NCBI RefSeq assembly: GCF_003591005.1
Contig: NZ_QYYD01000013.1
Location: 1-64,000, forward strand
Length of the DNA: 64,000 nt
Direction of reading: 5' to 3'
Source of the DNA: Rhodopseudomonas palustris
GTDB lineage: Bacteria; Pseudomonadota; Alphaproteobacteria; Rhizobiales; Xanthobacteraceae
Shown here: in pieces, positions 6,759 to 62,967 of the stretch
How positions within the stretch are numbered: position 1 is the first letter of the stretch
Layout of the letters: each line of letters opens with the position of its first letter
The notes under the pieces: generated by a model
Told to the model about the DNA's origin: nothing
The model's database searches: none
What the model saw: the letters and a program-made list of their open reading frames with translations, nothing else
Made by a program: the position numbers and the translations under genes

Positions 6759-8246
6759 ATGCAAAAAGAACGACTGATCCCGCTGATCGTGGCTTCCGCG
6801 CTGTTCATGGAAAACATGGACGCCACTGTGATCGCGACCTCGCTGCCGGCGATCGCGGCTGATATCGGCACTTCGCCGCTGACGCTGAAGCTGGCGATCA
6901 CCTCGTATCTGCTGTCGCTGGCCGTCTTCATCCCGGCGTCGGGCTGGGCCGCCGACCGGTTCGGCGCCCGCACCGTCTTTTCCGCGGCAATCGCGGTGTT
7001 CATGGTCGGCTCGATCGGCTGCGCGCTGGCGCATTCGATCAACGACTTCGTCGCCGCCCGCATCCTGCAGGGCCTCGGCGGGGCGATGATGACGCCGGTC
7101 GGGCGGCTGGTGCTGCTGCGCTCGATCGACAAGGCGGCGCTGGTCGGCGCGATGGCGTGGATGACGGTGCCGGCGCTGATCGGCCCAGTGATCGGGCCGC
7201 CGCTCGGCGGCTTTATCACCACCTATTTCTCGTGGCACTGGATCTTCCTGATCAACATTCCGATCGGGCTCGCCGGCATCTTCTTCGCGCAGCGCTACAT
7301 CGACCCGATCCGCAGCGAAAATCCCGAGCCTCTCGACGTCACCGGCTTGGTGCTGGCCGGCATCGGCGTCGCCGGCATCGCGTTCGGCCTGTCGGTCGCC
7401 GGGCTCGGCCTGCTGCCATGGCCGGTCGTCACCGGGCTGATCGTGGTCGGCTGCGGCTCGATGCTGCTGTATCTGCGCCACGCCCGCCGTACCGCCTCGC
7501 CGGTGCTCGATTTTTCGCTGATGCGGCTGACGACGCTGCGCGTATCTCTGACCGGAGGCTTTCTGTTCCGGCTCGGCATCGGCGCGCTGCCGTTTTTGCT
7601 GCCGCTGTTGATGCAGATCGGCTTCGGCCTGTCGCCGTTTCAGTCCGGCCTCGTCACCTTCGCTTCCTCCGCCGGCGCGATGGGCATGAAGGTGCTGGCG
7701 GCGCGGATCATCCGCGCCTTCGGCTTCCGCCGCATCATGACCATCAACGCGCTGGTCAGCGCGGCCTTCCTGGCCGCCTGCGCGCTGTTCACGCCGGGCA
7801 CGCCGCTGCTGCTGATCATGATCATCCTGCTGGTCGGCGGTTTCTTCCGTTCGCTGCAATTCACCGCGATGAATACCGTGGCCTATGCGGAGGTGGAGAC
7901 GCCGCAGATGAGCCGCGCCACGACGCTGGTCAGCGTCGGTCAGCAGCTGGCAATCTCGGCGGGCGTTGCGGTCGGCGCATTCTCGGTCGAAGCCACCATG
8001 GCGCTGCGCCATTCGACAACGCTCACCGCCGACGATTTCGCCCCGGCCTTCCTGGTTGTCGCGGTGCTGTCGGCGCTGTCGGCATTTTCGTTCTGGCGGA
8101 TGCCGGACGACGCCGGCAGCGAGATCTCCGGCCGCAAGGCCATCGACATCTCCAGCCGCAAGGGCGAAGTCAGCGCGGTCACAAAGACTGCGACCAAAAA
8201 GGCCGTGGAAGAGACCCAGGATGCGCGCGATCAGCGGCTGGGTTGA
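6759..8246 (+). CDS. DHA2-type MFS multidrug exporter (EmrB/QacA subfamily)
   Basis: A 495-aa proton-antiport drug exporter predicted to span the inner membrane 14 times. Helix 1 carries the conserved acidic residue in MENMDATVIATSLPAIA (motif D1). The loop 2-3 motif GWAADRFGARTVF (motif A) and the antiporter motif C, PALIGPVIGPPLGG, identify the DHA2 family rather than the 12-helix DHA1 group. There is no adjacent membrane-fusion protein or outer membrane channel, so it likely works alone, and no regulator gene flanks it. The C-terminal 40 residues are hydrophilic and lysine-rich. Substrate unknown. Confidence 0.88.
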   Translation: MQKERLIPLIVASALFMENMDATVIATSLPAIAADIGTSPLTLKLAITSYLLSLAVFIPASGWAADRFGARTVFSAAIAVFMVGSIGCALAHSINDFVAARILQGLGGAMMTPVGRLVLLRSIDKAALVGAMAWMTVPALIGPVIGPPLGGFITTYFSWHWIFLINIPIGLAGIFFAQRYIDPIRSENPEPLDVTGLVLAGIGVAGIAFGLSVAGLGLLPWPVVTGLIVVGCGSMLLYLRHARRTASPVLDFSLMRLTTLRVSLTGGFLFRLGIGALPFLLPLLMQIGFGLSPFQSGLVTFASSAGAMGMKVLAARIIRAFGFRRIMTINALVSAAFLAACALFTPGTPLLLIMIILLVGGFFRSLQFTAMNTVAYAEVETPQMSRATTLVSVGQQLAISAGVAVGAFSVEATMALRHSTTLTADDFAPAFLVVAVLSALSAFSFWRMPDDAGSEISGRKAIDISSRKGEVSAVTKTATKKAVEETQDARDQRLG

Positions 8247-8249
8247 GCG

Positions 8250-8429
8250 CTATCTCAGCGCCTCTTGCTCGCCCTCGCCGCCTTCGTCGTGCCGAACCGC
8301 CAGGCGCAGGACGTCGGCGCAGATCGGGCAGCGATAATGCGGCACGTCGAAACTTGCATTGGCGTGTTCGACCTCGACGAGTTCGCGGTCGACGCCGCAT
8401 GCCCGACACATCGGGGTTAGAATATCCAT
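8250..8429 (-). CDS. Small zinc-ribbon-like protein
   Basis: A 59-residue protein with two CxxC knuckles, C8-x2-C11 and C34-x2-C37, spaced like a zinc ribbon, followed by a short acidic tail. The reading frame is open 12 codons further upstream, but the ATG at 8429 has an AGGGGC ribosome site and begins right before the first knuckle. It converges on the exporter gene with only 3 bp between stop codons. No specific function can be assigned; a DNA- or protein-binding role would be speculation. Confidence 0.6.
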   Translation of the reverse strand: MDILTPMCRACGVDRELVEVEHANASFDVPHYRCPICADVLRLAVRHDEGGEGEQEALR

Positions 8430-8639
8430 CGCCCGCCCCTTGCTTGATTTCAGCCCCGTGGACAAGCGTAGGAGAAACTGCGGATTCGCCTTTGTAAATT
8501 CATACCTAATGTAATAAATCGCGCGTTATTCGGCCGAAATTTATGCAAGTAGCTCGCAGCTGGGCTCCTGAGAGCCCGCATCAAAACTGAGGCGGAGTTG
8601 CAGCCATGTTTGCAGTCGGTCGGTTTGCTCAAATGTTCC

Positions 8640-8711
8640 GTCATGGCCGGGCTTGTCCCGCCTGCGCGGCCGAAGCCGCTTCGGCGCGGCGAAGGCCCGG
8701 CCATCCACGCC
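8640..8711. repeat. Family D palindromic element (copy D1)
   Basis: TCATGGCCGGGCTTGTCCCGCC is followed by a CGGCCGAAGCCGCTTCGGC hairpin and then GGCCCGGCCATCCACG in inverted orientation. The rest of 8430-8804 shows no gene. An AT-rich stretch at about 8490-8545 is a likely promoter region for the minus-strand zinc-ribbon gene. Confidence 0.65.
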
Positions 8712-8804
8712 TTTTGTGCTTTTCCGTGACGCGTGGAGAGTAAAGTGTCTGATCTGAGAGGACGCGTTTCTAGTTAGGCTGGTCTGGAAGCAAACGCCGC
8801 GCAG

Positions 8805-9500
8805 TTAGTCCGCCGTGACAGCGGGCGTGCCACGAAACCCCATTGCCAGCACGTAGCGCTCCGACGAGTCCTTGCGGCTCGCGGCCGGTTTGACGTGCTT
8901 GACGGTGGCGAAATCCTGCTTGAGCTGGGCCATCAGCGTCGCGTCGGCGCCGCTCTGAAACACCTTGGCGACGAACGTGCCGCCGGGCTTCAGCACCTCG
9001 CTGGCGAACTGCGCGGCGCTTTCGACCAGTCCGACGATGCGGAGCTGATCGGTCTTGCGATGGCCGGTGGTGTTGGCCGCCATGTCGCTCATCACCACGT
9101 CGGCGCCGCCGCCGAGCATCTCGCGGAGCTTGTCCGGTGCGTCATTGTCGAGAAAATCGAGCTGCGCGAATGTCACGCCCGGGATCTCGCCCATCTCCAG
9201 CAAGTCGATCGCCACCACCTTGCCGCGGCCTTCGGACGCGCGGGTCCGCCTGGCGGCGATCTGGCTCCAGCCGCCCGGCGCCGCGCCGAGATCGACCACC
9301 GCGAGGCCCGGCTTGAGCAGATGATACTTGTCGTCGATCTCCAGCAGCTTGTAGGCGGCGCGCGAGCGATAGCCGTCGCGCTTGGCCTGCGCCACATACG
9401 GATCATTGAGCTGGCGCTCGAGCCAGAGCTTCGACGACAGCTTCATCCTGCCGGCGCTCTTGACGGTGACGCGCATCCGTCCGGTGGTGTCTTTGGCCAT
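8805..9500 (-). CDS. rlmE: 23S rRNA 2'-O-methyltransferase (U2552), RrmJ/FtsJ type
   Basis: RlmE methylates the ribose of 23S rRNA U2552 late in 50S assembly using SAM. The 231-aa protein has the SAM motif VVDLGAAPGGWSQ at about 68-80. The K-D-K-E catalytic tetrad is at K51, D139, K179 and E214, with spacings of 88, 40 and 35 residues that match the E. coli enzyme closely (86, 40, 35). The open frame extends 63 codons upstream through repeat DNA; the ATG at 9500 is chosen because homology begins there. The gene follows a Ppx/GppA gene on the same strand, an arrangement common in alphaproteobacteria, although a family B repeat separates them here. Confidence 0.95.
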   Translation of the reverse strand: MAKDTTGRMRVTVKSAGRMKLSSKLWLERQLNDPYVAQAKRDGYRSRAAYKLLEIDDKYHLLKPGLAVVDLGAAPGGWSQIAARRTRASEGRGKVVAIDLLEMGEIPGVTFAQLDFLDNDAPDKLREMLGGGADVVMSDMAANTTGHRKTDQLRIVGLVESAAQFASEVLKPGGTFVAKVFQSGADATLMAQLKQDFATVKHVKPAASRKDSSERYVLAMGFRGTPAVTAD

Positions 9501-19572: not shown

Positions 19573-19726
19573 GTTCGTCATTCCGGGGCGCTCGCGCAGC
19601 GAGCGAACCCGGAATCCATATCCCCTAGACTCGCGGCGGACAAAGATGGCCCGAAGCCTGGGCGACGCCGCAAACACAGGGGGTATGGATTCCGGGCTCG
19701 CGCTTCGCGCGCCCCGGAATGACTCG
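19573..19726. repeat. Family A palindromic element (copy A3)
   Basis: Left arm GTCATTCCGGGGCGCTCGCG with CCCGGAATCCATA, right arm TATGGATTCCGGGCTCGCGC with CCCCGGAATGAC, spacer about 80 bases beginning with CATATCCCCTAG. Confidence 0.87.
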
Positions 19727-24482: not shown

Positions 24483-24634
24483 CGTCATTCCGGGGCGCGC
24501 GCAGCGCGAACCCGGAATCCATAACCCCTATGCTCTCGGCTAAGCACAGCGCAGCGCCCGCCGTGCTCCACCACCCACACTGCGGCGTATGGATTCCGGG
24601 TTCGCGCAGCTTCGCTGCGCGCCCCGGAATGACG
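24483..24634. repeat. Family A palindromic element (copy A5)
   Basis: CGTCATTCCGGGGCGCGCGC with GCGAACCCGGAATCCATA, then a spacer starting ACCCCTATG, then TATGGATTCCGGGTTCGCG with GCGCCCCGGAATGACG. It separates the GST gene from the HCCA-isomerase gene. Confidence 0.88.
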
Positions 24635-29099: not shown

Positions 29100-29310
29100 G
29101 ACGTCCCTTGTCCCTCCCGGCTGGGGTCCAGCCGTCTCAACTTGCACTTTGGCACTTATTTGAGCGGGCCGTCGCCCGTTTTTCGGGCAACCTTGCGCCG
29201 CGCTCGCAGAAATCGCTCGGGTCCATCCATATCTTGCTGGCCCGGCGCTTGCTACCACCGTGTTCCGTGCTGCACTCTGGTGCAAACAGCTTTGGAATCA
29301 ATTTGGCGAC

Positions 29311-30729
29311 ATGGCAGTTGCGTTTGATGAGATGAACGGCCCCGGCGGCGAGCCCCGCCAGGCCTACCAGGAATTGTCCCGCTGGCTTGCCGACACCCCG
29401 TCCGAGGCGCTCGCCCACCGGCGCGAGGAAGCGGAGATGCTGTTCCGGCGGATCGGCATCACCTTTGCGGTCTACGGCGACGCCGAAGCCCAGGAGCGGC
29501 TGATCCCGTTCGACGTCATCCCGCGCATCCTGTCCGGCCGCGAATGGGCCCGGATGGAACTCGGGCTGAAGCAGCGGGTGCGCGCGCTCAATCTGTTTCT
29601 GCGCGACATCTATCACGGCCGCGACATCCTGCGCGCCAATATCATCCCGCACGATCTGATCTTTCAGAACCCGGTGTTCCGCCCGGAGATGAACGGCCAG
29701 GCCGTGCCGCACGACGTCTACGTCCACATCGCCGGGATCGATCTCGTCCGGGTCGACGACGAGGATTTCTACGTCTTGGAGGACAACGCGCGGACGCCGT
29801 CCGGCGTGTCCTACATGCTGGAAAACCGCGAAGTGATGATGCGGCTGTTTCCGGACCTGTTCGCCCGCCACCGCATTGCGCCGGTCGAGCGCTATCCGGA
29901 CGAACTCCTGACCGCGCTGCGCTCGGTGGCGCCGGCGCATTCGTCCTCGGAGCCGACCGTCGCGCTGATGACGCCCGGCGTCTACAACTCCGCGTATTAC
30001 GAGCACTCGTTCCTCGCCGACAAGCTCGGCATCGAGCTGGTCGAGGGCCGCGACCTCATCGTCAAGAACGACGAGGTGTTCATGCGCACCACCGAGGGGC
30101 TGAAGCGCGTCGACGTGATCTATCGCCGGGTCGACGACGATTTCATCGATCCGCTCACCTTCCGTCCGGATTCGGCGCTCGGCGTGCCCGGCCTGATGTC
30201 GGCGTACCGCGCCGGCAATGTCACGCTCGCGAATGCGGTCGGCACCGGCATCGCCGACGACAAGGCGGTTTACAGCTACATGCCGGAGATCGTGAAGTTC
30301 TACCTCGGCGAGGAGCCGATCCTGAAGAACGTCCCGACCTGGCGCTGCCGTGAGCCGGCGGACCTCGCTTACGTGCTCGATCACTTGGGCGAACTCGTCG
30401 TCAAGGAGGTGCACGGCTCCGGCGGCTACGGCATGCTGATCGGCCCCGCCGCCACCAAGGCGACGATCGAGGCGTTCCGCGACAAGCTCAAGCGCGAGCC
30501 GGAAGGCTTCATCGCCCAACCGACGCTGGCGCTGTCGACCTGCCCGACCTGCACCGATGCCGGCCTCGCCCCGCGCCACGTCGACCTGCGTCCGTTCGTG
30601 CTCACCGGCCGCGACCACGTCACCATCGTCCCCGGCGGCCTGACCCGCGTCGCGCTGAAAGAAGGCTCGCTGGTCGTCAACTCCAGCCAGGGCGGCGGGA
30701 CCAAGGACACGTGGATTTTGGATGAGTAG
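29311..30729 (+). CDS. Circularly permuted ATP-grasp protein (Anbu cluster)
   Basis: A 472-aa member of the permuted ATP-grasp family (DUF404/DUF407 type). The N-terminal half contains RRIGITFAVYGD and ERLIPFDVIPRIL. A conserved LEDNARTPSGVSYMLENR block (about 165-182), PGVYNSAYYEHSFLA, and the ATP-grasp phosphate loop region VVKEVHGSGGYGML (near 375) follow. The family is predicted to ligate an amine to a carboxylate with ATP, and the EDN and GSGGYG stretches support an active site. An in-frame ATG lies 17 codons upstream; I chose 29311 because the upstream residues are not family-like. It heads a four-gene plus-strand cluster with alpha-E, transglutaminase and Anbu genes, a known neighbourhood. 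Product unknown. Confidence 0.9.
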   Translation: MAVAFDEMNGPGGEPRQAYQELSRWLADTPSEALAHRREEAEMLFRRIGITFAVYGDAEAQERLIPFDVIPRILSGREWARMELGLKQRVRALNLFLRDIYHGRDILRANIIPHDLIFQNPVFRPEMNGQAVPHDVYVHIAGIDLVRVDDEDFYVLEDNARTPSGVSYMLENREVMMRLFPDLFARHRIAPVERYPDELLTALRSVAPAHSSSEPTVALMTPGVYNSAYYEHSFLADKLGIELVEGRDLIVKNDEVFMRTTEGLKRVDVIYRRVDDDFIDPLTFRPDSALGVPGLMSAYRAGNVTLANAVGTGIADDKAVYSYMPEIVKFYLGEEPILKNVPTWRCREPADLAYVLDHLGELVVKEVHGSGGYGMLIGPAATKATIEAFRDKLKREPEGFIAQPTLALSTCPTCTDAGLAPRHVDLRPFVLTGRDHVTIVPGGLTRVALKEGSLVVNSSQGGGTKDTWILDE

Positions 30730-30768
30730 CTTCGCCCAGAACGGTCAGCGCCGTCGCAACCGCTGCCT

Positions 30769-30872
30769 GCTCCCCTCCCCCTTGCGGGGAGGGGTCGGGG
30801 GTGGGGGTCCACAACGGGAGCCTCACCTCGCGTCACCCCCCACCCCGCCCCTCCCCCGCAAGGGGGGAGCGA
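30769..30872. repeat. Family C palindromic element (copy C3) inside the Anbu cluster
   Basis: CTCCCCTCCCCCTTGCGGGGAGGGGTCGG on the left and CACCCCGCCCCTCCCCCGCAAGG on the right form a bipartite inverted repeat in the 167-base gap between the ATP-grasp and alpha-E genes. Confidence 0.82.
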
Positions 30873-30896
30873 GAACGCTGTCGCCGAGTTCGCTCC

Positions 30897-31841
30897 ATGC
30901 TCTCCCGCACCGCTGAAAATCTGTTCTGGCTCGCCCGCTATGTCGAACGCGCAGAGTATCTGGCGCGGACGATCGAGGCGACGCTGCGCGTCACCGCTTT
31001 GCCCAACACCTATTCGGGCCAGGGCAACGAGTGGGACTCGGCGCTGCTGACGGCCGGCGTCGCCGCGAGCTTCTACACGCACTATGAGGAAGCCAACGAG
31101 CCCAACGTCGTCGAATTCCTGGCGTTCGCTTCGACCAACCCGTCGTCGATCCGCAATTGCATCGAGGCGGCGCGGCTCAACGCGCGCTCGGTGCGCACCG
31201 CGCTGACCGGCGAGATGTGGGCGACCATCAACAGCACCTGGATCGAATTGCAGGAGCGATGGAGCAAGGGCGCCAAGACCCGCGAACAGCTCGACGGCTT
31301 CCTGCGTTTCGTCCAGGAAGCTTCGCTGCGGTTCGACGGCTCGGCCTATCGCACCATGCTGCGCAACGACGCTTACTGGTTCTCGCGGCTCGGCGTGCAT
31401 CTGGAGCGCGCCGACAACACCGCGCGCATCCTCGACGTCAAATATCATCTGCTGCTGCCCGAGGAAGAGCACGTCGGCGGCCCGCTCGATTACTATCAGT
31501 GGTCGTCGATCCTGCGCTCGGTGTCGGCGCAGACCGCCTATCATTGGGTGTATCGGCAGACGCTGAAGCCGTGGCTGATCGCCGACCTGTTGATCCTCAA
31601 CGACAGCCTGCCGCGCTCGCTGGCCTCGTGCTACGGCGACCTCGTCCGCAATCTCGACCAGATCGGCGTCGCCTATGGCCGGCAGGGCCCGGCGCAGCGC
31701 CACGCCCGCGGCATGCGCAACCGGCTCGAACATTCCGACATGGAAGACATCTTCCAGCGCGGGCTGCACGAATTCATCCAGGAGTTCCTGGCCGACAACA
31801 GCCGGCTCGGCGAGATCATCGCCAAGCAATATCTGATCTGA
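30897..31841 (+). CDS. Alpha-E domain protein (Anbu cluster)
   Basis: A 314-aa all-helical protein of the alpha-E family. The opening MLSRTAENLFWLARYVERAEYL is the family hallmark, and a second conserved ARTIEA / LERADNTARILDVKY region repeats the same Glu-Arg-rich pattern (E-R-A-[DE]). Alpha-E proteins are nearly always encoded beside permuted ATP-grasp proteins and are thought to act with them in a peptide or amine ligation, but no activity is proven. The upstream open frame is repeat DNA, so the ATG at 30897 is chosen. It follows the ATP-grasp gene by 167 bp with a family C repeat between. Confidence 0.93.
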   Translation: MLSRTAENLFWLARYVERAEYLARTIEATLRVTALPNTYSGQGNEWDSALLTAGVAASFYTHYEEANEPNVVEFLAFASTNPSSIRNCIEAARLNARSVRTALTGEMWATINSTWIELQERWSKGAKTREQLDGFLRFVQEASLRFDGSAYRTMLRNDAYWFSRLGVHLERADNTARILDVKYHLLLPEEEHVGGPLDYYQWSSILRSVSAQTAYHWVYRQTLKPWLIADLLILNDSLPRSLASCYGDLVRNLDQIGVAYGRQGPAQRHARGMRNRLEHSDMEDIFQRGLHEFIQEFLADNSRLGEIIAKQYLI

Positions 31842-31983
31842 CGCAATTTCCCGGGCGCGTGTCGCGCCGCCGGGATCACGCGCCTTCGAAAAATGCGGGC
31901 ACGCCGGCGATTCCAGCAAAGCCCCCGCTCTTATAGCTGATATAGTCCGCGCGCCCCGCGCCGCGACGATCCGGAATGCCGAC

Positions 31984-32835
31984 ATGCGCCTGCGAATTTC
32001 CCACACCACCACCTATCGCTACGAGCCCGCCGCCACCGGTCTGATCCAGGTGCTGCGGATGACGCCCGGCAGCCATGACGGCCAATACGTTGCCGACTGG
32101 CAGATCGATATCTCGTCCGATGCCAAGCTCGACATGCACTACGACGCCTTCGGCAATATCACCCACGTGCTGACGCTCGGCGCCACCGAGGATCTCACCA
32201 TCACGGCCGAAGGCCTGATCGAGACCAACGACACCGGCGGCGTGATGCGCGGCACCGACGAGCGGTTTCCGCCGCAGCTGTTCCTGCGCTCCACCGATCT
32301 CACCGAGCCGACTCCGGCGATCGCCGCCTTCACCCGCGAGATCGGCGGCGCCGAGGGCGACGCGATCAGCTTCCTGCATGCGCTGATGTTGCGGCTCAAC
32401 GAGCACATGACGTTCGACGACGATCCGACGCATTCCGGCACGACCGCGGCCGAGGCGTTCACGCTGCGCCGCGGCGTCTGCCAGGACTACGCGCATGTGT
32501 TCATCGCCTGCGCCCGCTCCGGCGGCGTGCCGGCGCGCTTCGTGTCGGGGCACTTCCTGCGCGCCGACGGCCAGGTGCATCAGCAGGCCGGCCACGCCTG
32601 GGCCGAGGCCTATGTGCCGGCGCTGGGTTGGGTCGGGTTCGATCCGGCCAACGGCATCTGCTCCACCGACGCCCATGCCCGGGTCGCCATCGGGCTCGAC
32701 TATCTCGGCGCCGCGCCGGTGCGCGGCACGCGCTATGGCGGCGGGCTCGAGACCCTGACGGTCGCCGTCAAGGTCGACCAGGCCGGCGGCCGGCAGTCGC
32801 CATCGCAGTCGCAGTCCCAATCCCAGTCGCAATAG
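31984..32835 (+). CDS. Transglutaminase-like cysteine peptidase (Anbu cluster)
   Basis: A 283-aa protein with an N-terminal bacterial transglutaminase-like region (MRLRISHTTTYRYEP, about 1-80) and a papain-like transglutaminase core. The catalytic triad is visible as Cys166 in RRGVCQDYAHV, His204 in GHAWAEAY and Asp220 in GWVGFDPANG. Bacterial members are usually peptidases rather than cross-linkers. The C-terminus ends in a run of Ser-Gln dipeptides (about 272-283) encoded by a 6-base microsatellite-like repeat. It lies 142 bp after the alpha-E gene and 160 bp before Anbu. There is no signal peptide, so it is cytoplasmic like its partners. Confidence 0.92.
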   Translation: MRLRISHTTTYRYEPAATGLIQVLRMTPGSHDGQYVADWQIDISSDAKLDMHYDAFGNITHVLTLGATEDLTITAEGLIETNDTGGVMRGTDERFPPQLFLRSTDLTEPTPAIAAFTREIGGAEGDAISFLHALMLRLNEHMTFDDDPTHSGTTAAEAFTLRRGVCQDYAHVFIACARSGGVPARFVSGHFLRADGQVHQQAGHAWAEAYVPALGWVGFDPANGICSTDAHARVAIGLDYLGAAPVRGTRYGGGLETLTVAVKVDQAGGRQSPSQSQSQSQSQ

Positions 32836-32995
32836 GGACATCGCGCCGACAGCGCGGCCGCGCTTGCGCTGCAAGTTGCGCACAATTGCCGAGTGCCGGG
32901 CGGTTTCCCCTGCGCGGCGAAATGCTCTAGTCTGCGCGTCGCCGAGCGCACAGCCGCGCCGGTTTCCCCTGATCGACGGACGTGCCGAGGACGAG

Positions 32996-33742
32996 ATGAC
33001 TTATTGCTGCGGAGTGCTGGTCCAGGACGGCCTCGTGATGATCGCCGACACGCGGACCAATGCCGGGCTCGACAACATCTCGACCTTCCGCAAGCTGCAC
33101 GTCTTCAACAAGCCGGGCGACCGCATCATGGCGATCGCCAGCGCCGGCAATCTGTCGATCAGCCAATCGGTGCTGTCGACGCTGACCGAAGGCCTCGAAG
33201 ACCCCGAGACCGGCACGCGCGAGACGCTGATCGAGGCGCCGACGATGTTCCAGGCGGCGCAGCTGATCGGCCGCGCCATCCGCCACGTCAACGCCACCGA
33301 GGCGCAGGCGCTCAAAGCCGAAGACATCAACTACGAAGTGTCGTTCCTGTTCGGCGGCCAGATCAAGGGCGAGCGCATGCGCCTGTTCATGATCTATCCG
33401 GCCGGCAATTTCATCGAATGCACCATCGATACGCCGTACCTGCAGATCGGCGAGCACAAATACGGCAAGCCGGTGCTCGACCGCGCGATTACTTACGACG
33501 TCGAACTGTACGAGGCGCTGAAGACCAGCCTGATCTCCATGGATTCGACGATGCGCTCCAATCTCGGCGTCGGCCTGCCGATCGACGTTCTCGTCGTCCG
33601 CACCGACGTCTGCGACGCCGACCTCAACCACCGCATCGAAGCCGGCGAGCCGTATTTCCACGACCTGCGCTCGCGCTGGTCCGCCGCGCTCCGCGCCGCC
33701 CACAAAAACATCCCAAGGCCGCCGTACAAGGACGCGAAGTAG
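32996..33742 (+). CDS. Proteasome-like peptidase Anbu (bacterial proteasome homologue, T1 family)
   Basis: A 248-aa N-terminal-nucleophile hydrolase. After removal of the first Met, the mature chain starts with Thr1, and the proteasomal partners align as Asp17 (MIADTRTN) and Lys32 (FRKLHVF). IMAIASAGNLSISQ and SFLFGGQI are further family blocks. Homologues assemble into open helical or lock-washer particles rather than closed HslV-type rings, and an Anbu-specific protease activity has been hard to show. The ATG at 32996 puts Thr directly after Met, which decides the start. It is the last gene of the ATP-grasp/alpha-E/transglutaminase cluster, followed by repeat A7. Confidence 0.93.
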   Translation: MTYCCGVLVQDGLVMIADTRTNAGLDNISTFRKLHVFNKPGDRIMAIASAGNLSISQSVLSTLTEGLEDPETGTRETLIEAPTMFQAAQLIGRAIRHVNATEAQALKAEDINYEVSFLFGGQIKGERMRLFMIYPAGNFIECTIDTPYLQIGEHKYGKPVLDRAITYDVELYEALKTSLISMDSTMRSNLGVGLPIDVLVVRTDVCDADLNHRIEAGEPYFHDLRSRWSAALRAAHKNIPRPPYKDAK

Positions 33743-33783: not shown

Positions 33784-33932
33784 CGTCATTCCGGGGCGCG
33801 CGCAGCGCGAACCCGGAATCCATAGCCCCTGGCCTCTCAACAGGCCGACGGCCTCTCCCGCCGTGCACACCCACGCCCGTCCGTGGTTATGGATTCCGGG
33901 CCTGCGCCCTGCGGGCGCATCCCGGAATGACG
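33784..33932. repeat. Family A palindromic element (copy A7)
   Basis: CGTCATTCCGGGGCGCGCGC with GCGAACCCGGAATCCATAG and TATGGATTCCGGGCCTGCG with GCATCCCGGAATGACG, about 75 bases of spacer. It closes the Anbu cluster. Confidence 0.87.
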
Positions 33933-51393: not shown

Positions 51394-51409
51394 TGGCATG
51401 TCGCTTGCT
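51394..51409 (+). promoter_or_regulatory. Sigma-54 promoter of cowN
   Basis: TGGCATGTCGCTTGCT fits the RpoN -24/-12 consensus TGGCACG-N4-TTGCW, with exactly ten bases between the invariant GG (51395-51396) and GC (51407-51408). It lies 34 bases before the cowN ATG. Confidence 0.82.
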
Positions 51410-51442
51410 TTGCGGCGGCGATATCGCTGTTTGGGGTTAGGA

Positions 51443-51721
51443 ATGTCGGATTCGTTCGATCGCTATGTCAGCTTCAAGAACTGCAACTGGGAGGTTCGAT
51501 CGGAGCGCGTGATGGCGCGATTGCAGACTCACATCGACGCCGCGGAGAATCCCTTCTGGGCTTACTTCGCGCAAAAGCGCGTCGAACTGCGCGACAAGCA
51601 GGGGCTCGACGATCTGCGCGTGCTCCACAACTATCTGCCGACTCTGCGTGAACTGCTCGAGGACAACGGCGACCTCGAGACGCTGGCGATGCTGGAAGAA
51701 CTCGAGATGCACCTGATGTAG
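51443..51721 (+). CDS. cowN: CowN, CO-protection protein for nitrogenase
   Basis: A 92-aa protein matching CowN in length and in its landmarks: [13 protein letters not shown] at the N-terminus, [21 protein letters not shown] in the centre and an acidic [26 protein letters not shown] end. CowN sustains molybdenum-nitrogenase-dependent growth in the presence of carbon monoxide by shielding the enzyme from CO. The ATG at 51443 follows GGGGTTAGGA, and the RpoN promoter just upstream supports nitrogen-fixation control. No nif genes are in the window, so the gene is separate from the main nif cluster. Confidence 0.9.
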
Positions 51722-62785: not shown

Positions 62786-62967
62786 CGTCATTCCGGGGCG
62801 CGCGCAGCGCGAGCCCGGAATCCATAACCACCGTGATCGTGTGAAGCACGGCCGCAGCGAACGCAACCGTGATCGTGTGAAGCACGGCCGCAGCGAACGC
62901 AGTGCCTCACAGCTGGACACAGCGAGTATGGATTCCGGGTTCGCGCAAGAGCGCGCCCCGGAATGAC
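62786..62967. repeat. Family A palindromic element (copy A9) with an internal 36-bp duplication
   Basis: CGTCATTCCGGGGCGCGCGC with GCGAGCCCGGAATCCATA on the left, TATGGATTCCGGGTTCGCG with GCGCCCCGGAATGAC on the right. The spacer is enlarged by a tandem duplication described separately. Confidence 0.87.
62830..62901. repeat. 36-bp exact tandem duplication
   Basis: The unit starting ACCGTGATCGTGTGAAGC occurs at 62830-62865 and again at 62866-62901 with no mismatch, in the spacer of repeat A9. Two copies only; there is no spacer variation, so it is not a CRISPR. Confidence 0.93.

Follow-up and report, generated by a model that had tools for sequence, protein, structure and literature searches.

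The Anbu operon, reportedly described by Iyer et al. in 2009, combines genes for an ATP-grasp protein, an Alpha-E protein, a transglutaminase-like enzyme (TG) and the proteasome homolog Anbu, and it is the system present at positions 29311 to 33742 of the 64,000-nucleotide stretch of Rhodopseudomonas palustris DNA analyzed here (the window; assembly GCF_003591005.1, contig NZ_QYYD01000013.1). In the passages of the published work covered here and below, the operon is described with these four families in this order and with the catalytic residues Thr1/Asp17/Lys32 in Anbu (Fuchs et al. 2017, PMC5666114; Piasecka et al., PMC6376114), and Anbu, which is related to the proteasome core, is said to have no known function (PMC5666114, PMC6376114, PMC8665760). 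A nitrogen-controlled set of ATP-grasp (DUF404/407), Alpha-E (DUF403) and TG genes is described in Burkholderia cenocepacia H111 (I35_5080-83), where the cluster was identified as a target shared by sigma-54 and NtrC and where transcripts for ATP-grasp, Alpha-E, TG, and a large TG fell by log2 8.2, 9.4, 9.4, and 6.0, respectively, in an ntrC mutant. Unlike the cluster in the window, its fourth gene encodes the large TG-domain protein, and Anbu is not named in the passages covered (PMC5491218).

The cluster in the window is not new, being a Rhodopseudomonas copy of the published Anbu operon. Its anatomy is identical, and what is added here is a conserved sigma-54 site with two accompanying boxes upstream of the ATP-grasp gene and a one-way dependence of Anbu on the other three genes (the trio). 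The best explanation, to which we give an even chance, is that the trio is a ligase/TG unit induced by nitrogen starvation and that Anbu acts on the product of the trio. Nitrogen shortage would lead sigma-54 and NtrC to switch on the ATP-grasp, Alpha-E, and TG genes, with Anbu at least partly under separate control. The ATP-grasp and Alpha-E proteins together would act as an amide (carboxylate-amine) ligase, the TG-like enzyme would cut or transfer an amide connected with the ligase product, and Anbu would hydrolyze an amide bond in the product, which may be a small amide or peptide conjugate; the chemistry would presumably run in this direction. More tentatively, Anbu might be an Ntn-hydrolase, expressed separately, that undoes or completes a non-ribosomal amide conjugation carried out by the trio only under nitrogen shortage. 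In such a nitrogen-gated conjugation cycle, this proteasome relative would be a deconjugating enzyme and not a protease. The conserved nitrogen-control region and the one-way dependence of Anbu single out one condition for study (a nitrogen shift), suggest the order in which the parts act, and allow clean comparisons between deletion strains of harmless laboratory bacteria, and finding the product would show what the Anbu branch of the proteasome family acts on.

Pfam and solved-structure matches bore out the preliminary description of four forward-strand genes of these families in a row, in the order ATP-grasp, Alpha-E, TG, and Anbu, and its statement that the co-occurrence of the families is established in comparative genomics was correct, this being the published operon. 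The circularly permuted ATP-grasp protein (29311 to 30729; 472 amino acids [aa]) matched PF14403 (E 1.1e-169), PF04174 (E 3.5e-166), and the structure 3N6X (E 1.3e-206). Alpha-E (30897 to 31841; 314 aa) matched PF04168 (E 4.9e-92), with no solved structure matching its sequence at E values up to 1, and the TG (31984 to 32835; 283 aa) matched PF01841 (E 3e-23) and PF08379 (E 1.3e-19), with 3ISR and 6G49 as solved relatives. Anbu (32996 to 33742; 248 aa) scored only weakly against the general Pfam proteasome model (PF00227, E 7.3e-07) and matched all five distinct solved Anbu sequences returned (5LOY, 5NYJ, 5NYF, 5NYW, and 5LOX; E 4.5e-85 to 1.1e-62), including the designed consensus 5LOY.

For comparison, the best 80 of 353 related loci were kept, all from Rhodopseudomonas, Tardiphaga, Bradyrhizobium, or unplaced kin; because many are closely related and a single strain contributes three, the locus counts are not independent. 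The nearest named relative was Rhodopseudomonas sp. AAP120, with 98% identity in Anbu. All four genes occurred in the same order and on the same strand in 67 of the 80 loci, one locus (L089) was cut off, and 12 carried Anbu without the other three genes in the DNA at hand. Among sequences whose match began at residue 1, the others being dropped, Cys166/His204/Asp220 of the TG were invariant in 69/69 and Thr1/Asp17/Lys32 of Anbu, directly after the start Met, in 81/81, window included, so that the catalytic residues noted earlier are intact and their loss in orthologs was not seen. The S1 pocket of Anbu-1 is formed by T20, F30, T48, L52, and S55 (PMC5666114); by counting, the window has T20, F30, S48, L52, and S55, with Ser in place of T48. 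T20 and S55 were in the list of residues invariant in the 81 sequences, which did not give F30, position 48, or L52.

The predicted sigma-54 (-24/-12) promoter TGGCCCGGCGCTTGCT lies at 29238 to 29253 on the forward strand, 57 base pairs (bp) before the ATP-grasp start. The pattern TGGCCC[GA]-N4-TTGCT was present at -70 to -131 in 62 of the 63 related loci with an ATP-grasp start, and in the single miss (L056) the upstream DNA was just 68 bp long. By scores that apply our own weights to a consensus, no site of comparable strength occurred within 350 bp upstream of Alpha-E (0/66 loci), TG (0/68), or Anbu (0/80). An alignment of 20 upstream sequences contained two further conserved blocks. Box B (29173 to 29189, forward strand; CGCCCGTTTTTCGGGCA in the window) was present in 62/63 sequences with its center 58 or 59 bp before the GG of the -24 element, and box A (29150 to 29166, forward strand), with a TG-N12-GC core that reads TGC-N11-GCA in most relatives, started 23 bp upstream of box B in 61/62. 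The consensus of NtrC sites is TGC-N11-GCA; both boxes resemble it, and this resemblance suggests that NtrC binds there. The same genome has three P-II genes, and the box B profile was applied to the 400 bp before two of them. One gene had two box-B-like sites of 11.3 and 10.2 bits, equalled by only 1 of about 60,000 background positions, and the other had weaker sites, of 7.8 and 6.9 bits, equalled by about 4 and 5 such positions. A single RpoN is encoded in the genome, as is a single NtrC above the curated cut-off, in which the GAFTGA loop is intact. A palindrome, TGCACTCTGGTGCA (29271 to 29284), also lies in the interval from the sigma-54 site to the ATP-grasp start, and its left part was conserved in the 20-sequence alignment.

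Beyond these relatives, 32 further loci were taken from other genomes, three of them of the same or a near genus, and the ATP-grasp upstream region was available in 31. A sigma-54 site scoring at least 18.5 was found in 16/31, at about 46 to 98 bp before the start in 15 and at about 315 bp in one. One genome (G036) had the site and the trio and no Anbu match, so sigma-54 control goes with the trio, which may be carried on one transcript. The ATP-grasp promoter had already been tabulated for one strain, since in Bradyrhizobium DOA9 a CP_ATPgrasp_1 gene appears, with TGGCCCGGCCCTTGC at -113, in the table of RpoN sites of RpoN-responsive genes; the passages covered do not name this promoter with those used for gel shift (PMC13207237). 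No link of the ATP-grasp sigma-54 promoter to Anbu was found in the literature searched, which left most subscription journals outside.

A single transcript over all four genes, as supposed in the preliminary description, is not indicated, as the conserved sigma-54 site stands before the ATP-grasp gene only and, in Bradyrhizobium, Anbu has a separate promoter-like block and in some loci is unlinked or lies apart from the trio behind unrelated genes. When the window was aligned with 39 loci, this block read approximately GGGGTTGGA, then 8 to 9 bp, then GAAATTGGCTA[CG]TA[GA]T, in the Bradyrhizobium rows, linked and unlinked alike, and it is probably a housekeeping-type promoter. The window has a degenerate form at 32917 to 32933 on the forward strand, a putative promoter, and the block was lacking in seven rows (L040, L042, L043, L055, L058, L063, and L102), largely of Tardiphaga and its kin. 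In wild-type Pseudomonas putida under nitrogen limitation, PP_2686-2688 rose 11- to 15-fold and PP_2685 (Anbu) 1.1-fold (PMC7801951). Separate control of Anbu is nevertheless disputed by the second P. putida study given below.

The occurrence of Anbu was one-way. Among 61 relatives, including the own genome, Anbu was found in 42 and a stand-alone Alpha-E in 46, and all 42 Anbu carriers were among the 46. Four relatives had the stand-alone Alpha-E without Anbu, and one (G007) had neither, with only two fragments of the fused type. Across 199 Pseudomonadota genomes of at least 95% completeness, Anbu was found in 82, of which 81 carried a stand-alone Alpha-E; the stand-alone Alpha-E was without an Anbu match in 37 of 118 carriers, a number to be read with the limit that distant Anbu may be missed because one query was used. 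Of the 12 related loci with Anbu alone, only 6 had the full 7 kilobases (kb) upstream, the other six having 0.9 to 3.3 kb, too little to judge; a search of 11 of these genomes found a stand-alone Alpha-E in 11/11, once only as contig-end pieces. Anbu would then depend on the trio, and the trio can exist without Anbu. It would be distinctly unlikely, in our estimate, that Anbu is a general starvation protease and that the trio makes an unrelated metabolite, with only neighborhood and nitrogen control in common. The loci of several Bradyrhizobium strains in which Anbu is parted from the trio behind its own promoter-like block would suit such independence, as would the 14/82 Pseudomonadota Anbu genomes in which Anbu and Alpha-E did not start within 6 kb of each other (68/82 did), but Anbu predicted the stand-alone Alpha-E whether linked or not, and its tie to the fused Alpha-E paralog was weak (P = 0.03; 0.33 outside the genus). 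Two genomes stood apart in this survey: G440, the exception among the 82, with Anbu and no Alpha-E match, and G527, with two Anbu genes, neither near Alpha-E.

Several results weigh against a nitrogen-induced trio whose product is acted on by Anbu. The pattern TGGCNCGN4TTGCW occurred 7 times genome-wide versus 8 for the reversed control, a chance level, so that a pattern match means nothing by itself and the argument rests on position and conservation. The longer TGGCCCGN4TTGCTACC occurred once in the own genome and in 0/288 other genomes of a class sample that included no other member of the own family. A site scoring at least 18.5 was missing from 15 of the 31 further upstream regions, four of which share a variant with GT at -12 and eleven of which have nothing convincing. 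In P. putida, induction of PP_2686-2688 under nitrogen limitation persisted in an rpoN mutant (14- to 20-fold, the TG gene 14-fold; PMC7801951), and sigma-54 control is therefore not general. Another P. putida study found PP2685 up 11.1-fold, more than PP2686 (6.6-fold), contrary to separate control of Anbu (PMC3325844). The Fisher P values for co-occurrence (5e-11 in the relatives and 3e-25 in the Pseudomonadota) ignore shared ancestry. No interaction was found among the operon proteins of Yersinia bercovieri (PMC6376114), and the authors of the Pa-Anbu structure considered proteolysis likelier than a role in peptide synthesis (PMC5666114). As to the variant, the upstream regions of loci L124, L126, L127, and L130, from four genera, carry the sigma-54-like TGGCACGATG[TC]TTGTA, with GT for GC at -12; the stretch taken contained no Anbu in any of the four.

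The gaps between the four genes measure 167, 142, and 160 bp by the gene coordinates, in agreement with the range of 142 to 167 bp given in the preliminary description. Its suggestion that they could hold a small peptide substrate is not supported, because gap 1 is mostly and gap 2 occasionally minimal and no conserved open reading frame (ORF) was found in the three gaps; a peptide or tag gene there was rejected. Across the related loci, gap 1 (ATP-grasp/Alpha-E) ranged from 3 to 290 bp and was 3 to 5 bp in 42/67, gap 2 (Alpha-E/TG) ranged from 2 to 197 bp and was only 2 bp in four, and gap 3 (TG/Anbu) ranged from 67 to 3962 bp, an upper bound because the measurement started where the TG alignment ended. 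Counting only ORFs wholly inside a gap, which has little power for peptides of 15 to 25 aa, no complete ORF of at least 15 codons was present in window gaps 1 and 3. Gap 2 of the window had two; in a search of 63 gaps, one of them matched a single sister strain and the other matched nothing. In eight inspected loci with a longer gap 3, we read the ORFs there as unrelated to the system and take them to be acyl-CoA dehydrogenase-like with AhpD-like, chloride-channel-like, MFS-like, and others. Most of gap 1 in the window is filled by an imperfect inverted repeat (30765 to 30878) with 44-nucleotide arms that are 77% complementary.

These gap data bear on the analogy to the Pup-proteasome system, which would likewise ligate and then cleave and of which Anbu is a homolog of the proteasome part. 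By this account, ATP-grasp/Alpha-E would tag proteins, the TG would remove or transfer the tag, and Anbu would degrade the tagged proteins in nitrogen starvation, a proposal that we regard as unlikely. The gene content suits the logic of ligation followed by cleavage, induction by nitrogen limitation suits protein turnover (PMC7801951), and Pa-Anbu, whose active site resembles that of the proteasome, binds MG132 and epoxomicin, an inhibitor binding that led its authors to favor protein degradation (PMC5666114). Three Anbu proteins, however, had no peptidase activity on standard substrates (PMC6376114). No tag gene was found in the gaps, though a tag might be a small molecule or have its gene at another place. 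Neither neighbor of the cluster, a divergent MoCF/CinA-like gene and a GNAT gene, is an AAA+ gene, with no search of the genome made for an unfoldase, Pup, or its ligase. The 37 of 118 genomes with a stand-alone Alpha-E and no Anbu match also speak against tagging for degradation, and the Pup analogy drawn in the preliminary description is not supported, although ligation followed by cleavage may still be what the system does.

With regard to the ligase step, an ATP-grasp homolog releases phosphate (PMC6376114), and another locus in this genome (L113; G000 contig 88, 70000 to 84000) encodes an 833-aa ATP-grasp/Alpha-E fusion on the reverse strand (L113 positions 6769 to 9270). This natural fusion supports the pairing of the two proteins as one working unit, possibly a ligase complex. 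The same ATP-grasp, Alpha-E, and TG families are present there as in the cluster; in contrast to the cluster, L113 has a DUF2126 amidoligase/TG gene beside the fusion and a small TG gene, no Anbu in 14 kb, and no sigma-54 site of at least 18.5. A sigma-54 promoter at L113 was accordingly rejected, the best score on either strand of the 14 kb being 17.5. The locus adjoins ethanolamine ammonia-lyase genes, in the form of eutB, a gene for a radical-SAM/B12-binding protein, and eutC.

A cycle similar to that of glutathionylspermidine, in which ATP-grasp/Alpha-E would link a peptide with an amine such as a polyamine and the TG or Anbu would release it and so recover nitrogen, appears rather improbable. 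It would fit the nitrogen control, the finding that in marine metagenomes the Pfam domains of these families vary in abundance with urea metabolism (PMC3597751), and the only solved relative of the ATP-grasp protein, 3N6X, which is titled putative glutathionylspermidine synthase. That title, however, is an annotation and not a tested activity, and at E 0.001 the protein matched CP_ATPgrasp_1 and CP_ATPgrasp_2 alone in Pfam, without a match to the glutathionylspermidine synthase family.

AlphaFold models of Alpha-E and the ATP-grasp protein were unusable (mean pLDDT 51.3 and 29.7, respectively) because the alignments contained near relatives only. None of the four cluster proteins matched a defense system in PADLOC (0/4), and no phage-borne relatives were found in two viral-contig scans. 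Text matches to DUF403/404 in a phage JC1 paper were discarded, as they were accession-like numbers only (404162, 404897, and the like) and no such domain. A dispersed 40-bp repeat occurs in four copies with 0 to 2 mismatches (19684 to 19723 on the reverse strand, 24484 to 24523, 33785 to 33824, and 62787 to 62826), one of them just 3' of Anbu, where inverted repeats are found too. The best-scoring sigma-54 sites in the window were that of the ATP-grasp gene and one at 51394, before the nitrogen-fixation gene cowN (site and gene at 51394 to 51721; NF033689, E 5.9e-31), where the sigma-54-like TGGCATGTCGCTTGCT stands 33 bp before the start.

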